Part shown: piece by piece, positions 6,213 to 11,106 of the stretch | Position numbering within the stretch: the first letter of the stretch is position 1 | Layout: each line of letters opens with the position of its first letter | Source: a virus | Length of the DNA: 55,909 nucleotides | IMG/VR virus record: IMGVR_UViG_3300030380_000259 | Span: 1 to 55,909 of that record | Reading direction: 5' to 3' (one strand) | Translations under genes and position numbers: made by a program | Notes under the pieces: model-generated | Told to the model about the DNA's origin: nothing | The model's input: the letters and a program-made list of their open reading frames with translations, nothing else | Databases searched by the model: none

Positions 6213-6270
6213 GTGTTATATAAATATTAATCACAACTTGTTGTGAGTAATTAATATTTATTTATAACAC
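6213..6270. repeat. AT-rich inverted repeat upstream of the first early gene
   Basis: Outer arms GTGTTATA...AAATATTAAT (6213-6231) and ATTAATATTTA...TATAACAC (6249-6270) pair with a 2-base bulge, and an inner hairpin TCACAAC-tt-GTTGTGA sits at the tip. The right arm contains the -10-like TATAAC of the early promoter, so cruciform formation or protein binding would interfere with that promoter. A related arrangement occurs at 7166-7220. Confidence 0.75.
6241..6268 (+). promoter_or_regulatory. Putative early promoter (TTGTGA-N16-TATAAC)
   Basis: TTGTGA (6241-6246) and TATAAC (6263-6268) are 16 bases apart, followed by ACTTAA. The same design, TTATGA-N16-TATAAC-ACTTAA, occurs at 7193-7220. Transcription would start near 6275, leaving a short leader with GGAG 7 bases before the ATG at 6291. 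The duplication of element, spacing and downstream bases is the main support. Confidence 0.6.
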
Positions 6271-6290: not shown

Positions 6291-6896
6291 ATGACAACAT
6301 CAAACTTCAAAAACTTCGCCACTCAGCTTGCTGAAGCTCCTAATACTTTAGAAGCCAAAGGCTTAGTGTTATCCCGTTGGGATAAATCTATTGTTTCTTC
6401 GGAGAAGAAAACATGGAAGTCTTTGACTTCTAGAGGTGGATTTTGGTTCTCCCTTGGAGAAGTTCTGTCTGAGATTCTAAAAGAATCTGGTGGTAGCAGA
6501 ATGGACTCAGCAAAGCTGAAAGACGCTAATCTTCATACCGTTGCAAAGCAACGTAGAAACGAAGCTATCAAGTTCTTTCAGAACTTTGACTTGATTGAAA
6601 ATCAAAAGCTGACTACCAAGTTTCAATCTATGACTAGATTGATTAGTGGTGTCAATGCTATTGTCAATCCAAAGGATGACAAGCCAACTGAACCAGAGGT
6701 TCAAAATGATGGTAAGTCCGCTGACGGACTAGATGAACCAAAGGTTCAAGAGGTCAAAGCCTTTACACAACTGAACGCTGAAGAAATCGCTTTTGAAGCG
6801 TTGCTTCAATGTGAAGTAAACAATATTCCTGTTAAGGAATTTATGTTAGCTCTCAAAGACCAACTACAGTTGGTTGACCAAAAGGCAGTAGCATAA
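6291..6896 (+). CDS. First early gene, unknown protein encoded by hairpin-saturated DNA
   Basis: 201 residues, no recognised family. The N-terminal half is mixed charged with WKSLTSRGGFWFSLGE at about 42-57 and a basic patch (KQRRNEAIKFF). A linker at 123-150 is Pro/Glu/Asp-rich (KPTEPEV, DEPKVQEV), and a helical tail follows. GGAG precedes the ATG. The nucleotide sequence is extraordinary: 15 perfect hairpins with stems of 6 or more occur in 606 bases, including 6369-6385, 6394-6410, 6472-6488, 6539-6553, 6570-6586, 6793-6809 and one spanning the stop codon (6886-6903). The palindromic element at 6714-6731 is translated in frame as KSADGL. The product may be a takeover protein, but that rests only on position. 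Confidence 0.8.
   Translation: MTTSNFKNFATQLAEAPNTLEAKGLVLSRWDKSIVSSEKKTWKSLTSRGGFWFSLGEVLSEILKESGGSRMDSAKLKDANLHTVAKQRRNEAIKFFQNFDLIENQKLTTKFQSMTRLISGVNAIVNPKDDKPTEPEVQNDGKSADGLDEPKVQEVKAFTQLNAEEIAFEALLQCEVNNIPVKEFMLALKDQLQLVDQKAVA
6714..6732. repeat. 19-bp palindromic element, copy 2 (inside a gene)
   Basis: AAGTCCGCTGACGGACTAG, in frame in the first early gene and read as KSADGL. It is flanked symmetrically by two further hairpins of the form TGAACC-nnn-GGTTCA (6689-6703 and 6734-6748), which encode the near-repeats EPEVQ and EPKVQ. The protein region is a low-complexity acidic linker where insertions would be tolerated. Confidence 0.85.
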
Positions 6897-6930: not shown

Positions 6931-7164
6931 ATGCGTAATCCACAAGCTACGTCATTCATTCGTAATTTCAACGCAAAGCGTATCACTTCATCATGGAACG
7001 CTACAGACGAAGCCTATGGCTTTGCCGTCTTTCCTGATAGAGATAACACTAAGCCATTCTGTTTTCGGAGTGGGCAAGCAAAAGCTATGGCTGATGAATA
7101 CAAGCGCAAACAAGCTATGCTTGACAAAGCTGAAGCAATGGCTATACTGGATTCACTACTTTAG
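6931..7164 (+). CDS. Small early protein of unknown function
   Basis: 77 residues, starting at ATG 6931 with GGAG 8 bases upstream; an overlapping 86-residue frame starting at 6917 lacks a ribosome-binding site. The product is charged and helical in the C-terminal half (QAKAMADEYKRKQAMLDKAEAMAILDSLL), with an N-terminal part containing FGFAVF-like hydrophobic residues. No family recognised. It is cotranscribed with the first early gene and is followed by an AT-rich inverted repeat. Confidence 0.65.
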   Translation: MRNPQATSFIRNFNAKRITSSWNATDEAYGFAVFPDRDNTKPFCFRSGQAKAMADEYKRKQAMLDKAEAMAILDSLL

Positions 7165-7165
7165 A

Positions 7166-7220
7166 GTTATAACATAAAATAAATAAGAATGTTTATGATT
7201 ATTTATTTTATTTATATAAC
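7166..7220. repeat. AT-rich inverted repeat with promoter-like core
   Basis: GTTATA (7166-7171) pairs with TATAAC (7215-7220), and TAAAATAAATA (7175-7185) pairs perfectly with TATTTATTTTA (7200-7210). It starts 2 bases after the stop of the preceding gene, so the RNA hairpin could terminate that transcript. The right arm carries TTATGA-N16-TATAAC (7193-7220), matching the promoter at 6241-6268, so the element may both end one transcript and start the next. Confidence 0.7.
7193..7220 (+). promoter_or_regulatory. Putative second early promoter (TTATGA-N16-TATAAC)
   Basis: It has the same spacing and -10 hexamer as the element at 6241-6268 and the same following bases, ACTTAA. It would drive the non-coding segment 7229-7450 and the gene at 7462. 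The -35 is a weak match to consensus, so activation by a factor or use of the palindromic element next to it is possible. Confidence 0.5.
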
Positions 7221-7228
7221 ACTTAACT

Positions 7229-7247
7229 AAGTCCGCTGACGGACTAA
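7229..7247. repeat. 19-bp palindromic element, copy 3
   Basis: AAGTCCGCTGACGGACTAA directly after the putative promoter at 7193-7220, in a position to be the first hairpin of the transcript or an operator. Identical to copies 1, 4 and 5. Confidence 0.9.
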
Positions 7248-7431
7248 CAAATTGAAAGGTTTTAAAATGTAGCGAAAATCTAATGGCAAAAAAAGTGTGA
7301 GTAGGTTCGCCCCATGTGAATTGAAAGCTATGCCAAGCAAGGTGACATGGGGGCATACCGTAAAAGTCTAGGCGGTATGTAGGCAGTGATGCGACCACGT
7401 AAAAAGCCTAGCATCCTTTAACTTCGTTACC

Positions 7432-7450
7432 AAGTCCGCTGACGGACTAA
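7432..7450. repeat. 19-bp palindromic element, copy 4
   Basis: AAGTCCGCTGACGGACTAA, immediately followed by the GAGAGGA ribosome-binding region of the 7462 gene. In RNA the hairpin would sit just upstream of the ribosome-binding site and could influence translation or processing. Confidence 0.9.
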
Positions 7451-7461
7451 GAGAGGACATT

Positions 7462-8088
7462 ATGAAAAAAGAATTTGAAATGGAAATTGCTATCAAGAAT
7501 ATTATCGCTATCAGACGCAAGGCAAAGCCTGAAGACGTAGCAGACGGTATCGCATGGTATGCAAAAGCATACGAGGAGTGCCGTATCATTGCTGAGAGAT
7601 TCGACTTGCCATTGCATATGGTAGTGGGTGTAGTTTCTGCTTTGTCACCCAACAATCGTTGGGCAACTAACATAATCAATGCGAGAGATGTTATCGAGAC
7701 ATGGGATTGTGGCTATGCCCCTGATACAGTTTCCGTATGTACTTACAATGCCATGAAGCTAAAAGCCTTTGCCATCTTAGATGGTGGTAGCAAAACCATT
7801 GATGAAGTAAAAGCTATCTTGAATGGCAAGAAAATTGTATGTTTCTTTGAGAATATACTAGGTGAGGACACTTGCACGATTGATGGTCATGCTCGTAACA
7901 TTGCATACAATCAACGTGTCAATCTTACAGATGCTAAAACTAGCATAGGCAAGCTAGAGTATGCCAATCTACAAGAAGCATATTTGCAAGCGTCAAAGCG
8001 TTGTAGCGTCAATGGCAGACGCTTGAAAACATACGAATTGCAAGCAATTACATGGGTCACATGGAGAAAGATGCACAATATTGCATAG
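7462..8088 (+). CDS. Conserved phage protein, possible DNA glycosylase-like fold
   Basis: 208 residues. The segments VVSALSPNNRWATNIINA (about 57-74), KIVCFFENILG (124-134) and CTIDGHARNIAY (138-149) form a pattern I recognise from unannotated phage proteins. The LSPN...W..N and TIDGHA arrangement is reminiscent of helix-hairpin-helix DNA glycosylases, but I cannot confirm this and no catalytic residue is certain. GAGAGGA precedes the ATG. Several 6-bp-stem hairpins are also present in this coding region, for example 7558-7573, though fewer than in the first early gene. Confidence 0.7.
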   Translation: MKKEFEMEIAIKNIIAIRRKAKPEDVADGIAWYAKAYEECRIIAERFDLPLHMVVGVVSALSPNNRWATNIINARDVIETWDCGYAPDTVSVCTYNAMKLKAFAILDGGSKTIDEVKAILNGKKIVCFFENILGEDTCTIDGHARNIAYNQRVNLTDAKTSIGKLEYANLQEAYLQASKRCSVNGRRLKTYELQAITWVTWRKMHNIA

Positions 8089-9352: not shown

Positions 9353-9767
9353 AACTGCATTTGTATGCCTTGCCATGAACGTGTATCACGAAGCACGTAA
9401 CCAATCTTTTATTGGGCAAGTGGCAGTAGCACAAGTGGTTATGAACAGAGTATATGATAATCGCTTTCCAGATAGTGTATGTGAGGTAGTCACACAAGGA
9501 CAGACATACTCATGGAAGCCAGATATTCCTATCAGGAATAGATGCCACTTCTCATGGTATTGTGACGGCAAGAGTGACAAGCCACGTGATGCGGAAGCAT
9601 GGGAGATGTCTAAACTAGTGGCATCAGGTGTGTTGTTTGGACACCTAGACGATTTCGTTGAGGGTTCAACACACTACCATGCGACATACATAGTGCCTGA
9701 GTGGGCAGAAACTAAACAGTACATTGTACGAATAGATGACCACGTATTTTACAGATGGGAGTATTAA
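9342..9767 (+). CDS. SleB-type cell wall hydrolase
   Basis: The start is set at ATG 9342, 7 bases after AAGGAG. The 141-residue protein matches the Hydrolase_2/SleB catalytic domain: NVYHEAR with the presumed catalytic Glu17, VAQVVMNRV, FPDSVCEVV, CHFSWYCDGK and THYHATYIVPEWA. Enzymes of this family cleave the glycan strand of peptidoglycan (lytic transglycosylase-like). No signal peptide of classical length is obvious, although the first 12 residues are hydrophobic. It is encoded in the early block, far from the T4-type lysozyme, so it may serve a different step. Confidence 0.88.
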   Translation: MLLETAFVCLAMNVYHEARNQSFIGQVAVAQVVMNRVYDNRFPDSVCEVVTQGQTYSWKPDIPIRNRCHFSWYCDGKSDKPRDAEAWEMSKLVASGVLFGHLDDFVEGSTHYHATYIVPEWAETKQYIVRIDDHVFYRWEY

Positions 9768-9769
9768 TT

Positions 9770-10012
9770 ATGCAACATCCAATATCACGTTACATGATGG
9801 CATCCTACGCATACTACGTAGAGGATGACCCGATACTAAGTGACGCAATGTTTGACCAATGTGCTAAGAATATCTTAGAGCATTGGGATACACTTGACCA
9901 TCCACACAAACATCTGCTATCAAAGGATATGCTAGAAGCAGGTACTTATCTAGGTAAGTATCCAGAGATAGTTAAAAATGCAGTAGCACATTACAGGAGA
10001 GAGAACACATGA
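9770..10012 (+). CDS. DNA ligase LigA-related small protein
   Basis: The start is ATG 9770 with GGGAG 8 bases upstream. The 80-residue protein contains ISRYMMASYAYYVEDDPILS followed by DAMFDQ, which resembles the N-terminal Y..YY..D.P..SD..YD signature that precedes the adenylation domain in NAD-dependent ligases. The adenylation domain itself is missing, so it is not a ligase on its own. Such stand-alone relatives are common in phages. Its stop overlaps the methyltransferase start. Confidence 0.65.
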   Translation: MQHPISRYMMASYAYYVEDDPILSDAMFDQCAKNILEHWDTLDHPHKHLLSKDMLEAGTYLGKYPEIVKNAVAHYRRENT

Positions 10013-11106
10013 ATGTATTAAGTTTATTTGATGGGAGTGCTTGCACTCGTGTTGCCTTAGACAAACTAGGTATACCAGTTACCAAGTACTATGCGTCAGA
10101 GGTAGACAAGTATGCTATCAAGGTAGCGATGGCAAACTATCCTGACATAGCACAGTTAGGTGACGTTAAGGATGTAGGCATAGCTTTCAAGGAAGGTGAT
10201 ATTGACTTGCTTGTAGGTGGTTCACCATGTCAAGGCTTTAGCTTTGCAGGTAAGCAGTTAAACTTTGATGACCCACGCAGTAAGCTATTCTGGGAATATG
10301 TCAGAGTCTTACGCAAACTCAAGCCCAAGTATTTCTTGCTTGAGAATGTACGCATGAAGCAAGAGTATCAGGACGTTATCTCTGATGCGCTAGGTGTACA
10401 ACCTATCGCTATCAACAGTAGGCTAATGTCTGCACAGAACAGATACAGATTGTATTGGACAAACATACCCAATGTCACACAACCAGAGGACAAAGGCATT
10501 GTGCTACAAGATGTCCTTGAGGATGGGTTTGCTGACAGAGAGAAGTCACATTGCCTTGATGCCAACTACTTCAAGGGTGGCAATCTCAAGACATACTTTA
10601 CCAAGCATCGTAGACAGTTAGTATTTAGTAGCGATGGCTTGTGTCATGTTGCTGACGCTGACCTCAATGGCAACGATAGCATCAAGCGTGTCTATCACCC
10701 ACTAGGTAAAGCACCTACGCTTACTACAGGTACAGGTGGCAACCATGAACCCAAGGTATTGTGTGGTGCATGGCGAGGTAGGTACACAGTCGATGGCGTA
10801 CGTCAAGACCACAAGCATAGTGTCAGAGGTATGACAGAGCAACGTCTAGAGGTACGGCTTGACGGCAAGACTAACAGTCTGACTACAGTACAGAAAGACA
10901 ATGTGGCAGTTCACTTTGACCACGATTGGAATGATACGAGTGTGTTTGACTTACAATGGCGCAAGCTGACACCGATTGAGTGCGAGAGATTACAGACATT
11001 GCCAGACAACTACACCAACCATGTGTCCAACACGCAACGATACAAGATGCTAGGCAATGGCTTTACAGTTGACGTGATAGCACATATACTGAAAGGAATT
11101 AAGTGA
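10009..11106 (+). CDS. DNA (cytosine-5) methyltransferase
   Basis: 365 residues with the ordered motifs of C5 methyltransferases: motif I LSLFDGSACTRVAL (4-17, SAM binding), motif IV GGSPCQGFS (70-78) with catalytic Cys74, motif VI ENV (112-114), motif VIII QNRYR (143-147) and motif X GNGFTVDVIAHIL near the end. The target-recognition region lies between about 160 and 310. It would transfer a methyl group from SAM to cytosine in DNA, probably masking phage DNA from host restriction. No cognate nuclease is adjacent, so it is an orphan enzyme. The start overlaps the upstream gene by 4 bases. Confidence 0.93.
   Translation: MNVLSLFDGSACTRVALDKLGIPVTKYYASEVDKYAIKVAMANYPDIAQLGDVKDVGIAFKEGDIDLLVGGSPCQGFSFAGKQLNFDDPRSKLFWEYVRVLRKLKPKYFLLENVRMKQEYQDVISDALGVQPIAINSRLMSAQNRYRLYWTNIPNVTQPEDKGIVLQDVLEDGFADREKSHCLDANYFKGGNLKTYFTKHRRQLVFSSDGLCHVADADLNGNDSIKRVYHPLGKAPTLTTGTGGNHEPKVLCGAWRGRYTVDGVRQDHKHSVRGMTEQRLEVRLDGKTNSLTTVQKDNVAVHFDHDWNDTSVFDLQWRKLTPIECERLQTLPDNYTNHVSNTQRYKMLGNGFTVDVIAHILKGIK

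Follow-up and report, generated by a model that had tools for sequence, protein, structure and literature searches.

The gene-poor segment at positions 7229-7450 of the window (the whole stretch of 55,909 nucleotides analysed here) raises the question of whether a structured RNA is maintained between two phage genes and, if so, whether this RNA governs the gene that follows or acts in its own right. The preliminary description of the locus had proposed a structured non-coding RNA with competing helices, resembling a regulatory leader, a riboswitch or an independent phage small RNA.

Genomic setting

The window record is an uncultured virus. By terminase identity it is close to Puniceispirillum phage HMO-2011 (85%) and to Roseobacter phages CRP-1 and CRP-345 (83%), and its gene order is similar to that of HMO-2011. 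Phages of this type are common across seawater; a literature search returned no RNA reported for them. Two genes border the segment, which is part of the rightward early region (about 6.2-25.9 kb):

6931-7164, plus strand: upstream gene, 77 aa, no assigned function; in L006 and L094, too, the RNA is preceded by a similar gene
7462-8088, plus strand: downstream gene of the DUF7178 family (Pfam PF23802, E 5e-36)

No plus-strand ORF of at least 60 aa is found from 7177 to 7462, in agreement with the gene-free character earlier attributed to the stretch. A tRNA/tmRNA search detected none, and comparison of the segment with annotated phages by BLAST gave no genuine match. Homologues of the DUF7178 gene (window 7462-8088; SIO1 9486-10076) occur in roseophages, cyanophages and mycobacteriophages, one of them being annotated as N-glycosylase/DNA lyase.

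Conservation of the RNA module

Two further phages, both uncultured, carry the segment: L006, a sister phage found with a pattern from the 3' hairpin, and L094, found with a pattern from the loop of hairpin P3 (see below). The module can be described as follows:

7264-7415, plus strand: structured RNA module of about 152 nt, 97% identical in L006 and 91% in L094

In both comparisons the module is better conserved than the neighbouring genes, which share 61-87% identity between the window and L006 and 61-88% between the window and L094. In L006, similarity covers 7261-7422 at 95% identity. Covariance models R1 and R2 detect the module in the window, L006 and L094 only, and gave nothing convincing in 15 records of related cultured phages (HMO-2011-type and cobavirus), a result that counts against a self-standing RNA. 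A weak match in CRP-603 (E 0.09) was rejected, being mostly within a gene and disappearing with R2, and an unfiltered search of the HMO-2011 early region produced chance-level scores only.

Six-frame comparison of the three phages showed that their open frames differ, through stops and a frameshift; the frame after a short AUG-UAG element at the start of the module contains an extra stop in L094, where the loop of hairpin P4 also features a one-base deletion. No reading frame is conserved in the window, L006 and L094, which rules out a protein-coding segment, the alternative against which the preliminary description had weighed its own proposal.

Secondary structure

Compared with dinucleotide shuffles, the predicted folding energy of the module is modestly low in all three phages (z -2.0 for window 7264-7422, -2.2 for L006, -2.4 for L094), and the minus strand folds more weakly (z -1.3). 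The figure for the whole 222 nt, z -3.7, is inflated because two flanking palindromes pair with each other. The two larger hairpins are:

7310-7352, plus strand: hairpin P3, CCCCAUGU (7310-7317) paired with ACAUGGGG (7345-7352), enclosing a 27-nt loop which is almost entirely invariant
7353-7380, plus strand: hairpin P4, GCAUACCG (7353-7360) paired with CGGUAUGU (7373-7380)

The helices previously pointed out in the DNA were all recovered, namely one of 8 bp (CCCCATGT 7310-7317 with ACATGGGG 7345-7352), one of 7 bp (CATACCG 7354-7360 with CGGTATG 7373-7379) and one of 6 bp (CTAGGC 7368-7373 with GCCTAG 7406-7411).

The eight pairs of P3 are unchanged in the three phages, as are those of a smaller hairpin within the core discussed below. 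The P3 loop, TTGAAAGCTATGCCAAGCAAGGTG, is also the same in all three, the identical stretch running from TTGAAAGC to GGTG; on the sequences compared, such conservation exceeds the needs of a simple spacer. In P4, the C7359-G7374 pair is replaced by U-A in L006, a compensatory change, and C7358-G7375 becomes a U-G wobble in L094. Two of the five differences between the window and L006 make up the compensatory pair, the simulated chance of at least one such event among five changes being 0.015. Across P3, P4 and the hairpin of the core, every pair stays intact in both L006 and L094 (chance 0.04). The covariation check suggested for homologues thus gave a mixed outcome: one compensated pair was found, along with a few wobble-type changes, but column-shuffle controls on the three sequences were not significant. 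The structural case, as read from three homologues, is the sum of conserved helices, compensation and loop conservation.

Retained in three phages, with changes sparing the main helices and no frame kept, the segment lives up to its earlier designation as structured non-coding RNA: the most likely reading of 7264-7415 is a non-coding RNA with a function in this HMO-2011-type phage. A nested model including helices P1, P2 and P5 was discarded, since it fits the window and L006 and loses three pairs in L094.

Competing partners of the 3' strand

Three UAGG stretches are able to pair with a single GCCUA:

7302-7307, plus strand: 5' strand of P0, a candidate closing helix, UAGGUU with AGCCUA 7405-7410
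7368-7373, plus strand: CUAGGC, candidate pseudoknot strand, with GCCUAG 7406-7411; both strands are invariant in the three phages
7381-7384, plus strand: 5' strand of P5, AGGC with GCCU 7406-7409, in the predicted fold of the window and L006

P5 has a predicted pairing probability of 0.9-0.99 in the window, and is broken in L094 by a G to A change. P0 is compatible with all three phages, one U-G pair becoming C-G in L094, and is part of the preferred predicted fold of that phage; we hypothesise, having examined this helix after L094 was seen, that UAGGUU would be the best-fitting partner of GCCUA over the three phages. The competition between helices earlier read from the sequence holds for the three UAGG stretches facing one GCCUA, but for the most part not for the 6-bp and 7-bp helices said to exclude each other: only base 7373 is common to both, so that the 6-bp helix may coexist with the other P4 pairs, and the two could be compatible as an H-type pseudoknot. 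What the 6-bp helix genuinely excludes is P5.

A core shared with GP20-b

The 3' part of the module resembles the GP20-b motif (Rfam RF03003):

7386-7407, plus strand: GP20-b-like core, hairpin GUG-AUGCGAC-CAC followed by GUAAAAAGC

In cmscan searches RF03003 scored 31.7 bits in the window (E 6.8e-5), 31.3 in L006 and 21.8 in L094, all below its gathering cut-off of 36.2 bits. A search of the whole window against Rfam, proposed as a check on the RNA, yielded nothing at gathering level; the matches below that level include RF03003 and no riboswitch. The 22-nt core, GUGANGCNACCAC-GUAAAAAGC, is exact in the window, and L094 has GUUAAAAGC. The pattern GTGANGCRACCACNTAAAAAGC was found in 48 viral contig stretches of IMG/VR. 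A scan of a genome collection for the core followed by GCC gave one match, which falls within a Chloroflexi MAG gene and was taken as chance.

Elsewhere the core is typically placed ahead of one kind of gene: 41 of the 44 genes directly behind core sites in other phages are Phage_scaffold. At these GP20-b-type sites the core is surrounded by an outer helix of 4-5 bp, lying beside the Shine-Dalgarno of the scaffold gene. This helix is longer than with swapped flanks (3.95 vs 3.38; 0/500) and, in its fixed register, shows more covariation than shuffles do (0.30 vs 0.12; 0/500), a control that related sequences may inflate; slid registers reach 0.11 at most. Sites with this helix include L018:8127-8163, L048:4930-4966(-) and L059:2713-2750(-). 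It is absent from the Rfam structure line, and the structure so refined makes a role of the motif in translation control directly testable.

The window RNA has in common with GP20-b a hairpin of the form GUG-ANGCNAC-CAC followed by GUAAAAAGC, an upstream GUAAAA and a phage origin, and certain GP20-b-type sites, L023 among them, have the identical 22 nt. It differs in that the core is embedded in an RNA of about 150 nt with two larger hairpins, and in that it comes from a marine HMO-2011-type phage, before a DUF7178 and not a scaffold gene. Moreover, the outer helix is missing from the window in the GP20-b register (GUAGG/GCAUC, two of five pairs non-standard); the core is possibly enclosed by helices in other registers (UAGG/GCCUA). 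Because register, score and gene context do not fit, we do not file the window RNA as a GP20-b member, and regard the core only as common. A core model built from 40 sites, the window's own row included, assigns 41.3 bits to the window and 23 bits to L094, which is outside the model, and also finds L006, L025, L004, L012 and L027.

We tentatively suggest that GUGANGCNACCAC-GUAAAAAGC might be a portable RNA module of unrelated phages, used in different settings: in the leaders of scaffold genes in one large phage group, and in an RNA of the early operon in marine phages of the HMO-2011 type. Bacteria would then be expected to have a widely conserved protein, or a component of the ribosome, that recognises the element. 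If one factor does recognise the core, an unexplained Rfam motif would be linked to another phage group unrelated to the first, and the core would provide a compact bait for that factor.

Two other arrangements of the core were observed. In L004:5622-5643(-) and L012:391-412 it forms a short leader right behind a sigma-70-like promoter, the next genes not being recognised as scaffold; in L027:3361-3382(-), on a 123-kb viral contig, it features an 8-bp enclosing helix and lies in a region of over 1 kb with few genes.

Neighbouring genes and possible function

The RNA and the DUF7178 gene are separable both ways, since in L006 the module precedes a DUF7227 gene, while two other phages, L055 and L056 (identity around the site 89%), have the same leader as well as DUF7178 but lack the RNA. 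The window and L094 share the downstream gene type. In L055/L056 the leader and its ATG open an unrelated 96-aa ORF where the RNA would be, and a gene similar to 6931-7164 is present at this site too.

As the L055 ORF begins at the equivalent ATG, the segment might be viewed as a functionless intergenic remnant, for instance of the gene that L055 retains here. We consider this the least probable reading, disfavoured because of the conservation of the module, which exceeds that of the flanking genes; in addition, the RNA is dissimilar to the L055 ORF, and its exact 22-nt core is common to GP20-b-type sites.

The riboswitch proposed for the locus was not supported by the comparison. No Rfam riboswitch matches it, even among weak matches, and a dedicated riboswitch is unlikely because the RNA is retained ahead of a different gene in L006 and DUF7178 persists without the RNA in sister phages.

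A generic mRNA leader, governing in cis the translation or stability of whatever gene comes next, is the main rival and deserves a substantial, though minor, share of belief. Rfam classes GP20-b as Cis-reg, the core is a leader at the scaffold genes, and the RNA lies in sense, 47 nt ahead of the start codon; the module is, indeed, always sense-oriented before a gene, as expected of a leader, which speaks against a self-standing RNA. On the other hand, the next gene varies between DUF7178 and DUF7227, the former existing without the RNA, and RNA and gene are set apart by a palindrome that is accompanied by a ribosome-binding site of its own, while the outer helix of GP20-b-type sites abuts the Shine-Dalgarno.

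An RNA acting in its own right is favoured because the next gene is exchangeable, the palindrome and a fresh ribosome-binding site intervene, and the whole module is gained or lost together. An independent small RNA of the phage is the leading, if unproven, option. In its full form, to which we give about an even chance, this reading takes the structured RNA of about 150 nt (7264-7415) as a self-standing early-operon module of HMO-2011-type phages, working via its core. The RNA would be transcribed together with the early genes and would fold into the P3, P4 and GUG/CAC hairpins, held by the 3' GCCUA paired with one of the three UAGG stretches; the GUGANGCNACCAC-GUAAAAAGC core would then be offered to a protein of the host or the phage, and would not serve to control one given next gene.

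A candidate antisense target, 14 nt of complementarity between 7321-7334 and 10177-10190 in a methyltransferase gene, was rejected as near chance level, being equalled by 6 of 150 shuffled RNAs; the site is also found in a sister phage devoid of the RNA.

Flanking signals

The RNA is flanked by several short elements:

7174-7211, no strand assigned: AT-rich 13-bp inverted repeat, ATAAAATAAATAA / TTATTTATTTTAT, upstream of the RNA; both stem sides are changed in L094
7230-7245, no strand assigned: palindrome AGTCCGCTGACGGACT before the RNA; in L006 and L094 this position is taken by other palindromes
7267-7272, plus strand: AUG directly followed by UAG, with Shine-Dalgarno-like GAAAGG at 7254-7259, kept in the three phages
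7433-7448, no strand assigned: palindrome AGTCCGCTGACGGACT after the RNA, between it and the downstream gene

The one-codon start-stop (7254-7272, with a good Shine-Dalgarno) could itself be the active element, capturing ribosomes, with the remaining RNA shaping the capture. Its presence in three phages under two different leaders, that of L006 being the differing one, would fit. Yet local gene cassettes start at such a leader, so that the AUG may just mark a recombination joint, and conservation spans 150 nt; we regard this reading as very unlikely.

Like phage small regulatory RNAs, the module is a short structured non-coding RNA in the early region; unlike them, it has no recognised promoter or terminator of its own. 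The promoter-like element reported upstream does exist, as TTGACA-16-TATACT (7121-7148), the best such site, but is located inside the upstream gene. Near the module start promoter-like matches are weak only, none being convincing, and no terminator-like site is found on the plus strand of 7264-7450.

By analogy with the put RNAs of phage HK022, the module might be a transcription antitermination or RNA-polymerase-binding element. It is placed in an early operon, right behind the AT-rich inverted repeat, and is independent of the next gene; L055/L056, however, share the operon and lack the RNA, and this reading, too, seems improbable, if slightly less so than ribosome capture.

AT-rich inverted repeats recur upstream of gene modules, at 7174-7211 and about 6216-6265, followed by TTTATATAACACTTAA or TTTATAACACTTAA; they are a possible phage promoter or terminator element.

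The palindromes noticed on both sides of the RNA were confirmed as AGTCCGCTGACGGACT, of which the window contains five 16-nt copies (6005, 6715, 7230, 7433 and 8711) vs 0.1 expected by chance. They lie at gene borders, one being in frame inside gene 6291-6896. At equivalent sites the sister phages bear different palindromes, GTCCAAnnTTGGAC in L006 (6 copies) and AACCCCAAnnTTGGGG in L094; HMO-2011 contains AGTCCGCTGTCGGACT (3 copies), and CRP-1 and CRP-345 contain GTCCAACGTTGGAC (4-5). They look like a phage-specific operator set, swapped in concert. The first early gene (window 6291-6896; L094 10287-10889; L006 6086-6592) is near-identical between the window and L094 in its C-terminal part and strongly diverged in its N-terminal part, with the palindrome at the border; it is a candidate regulator, whose putative DNA-binding part would change along with the palindrome.
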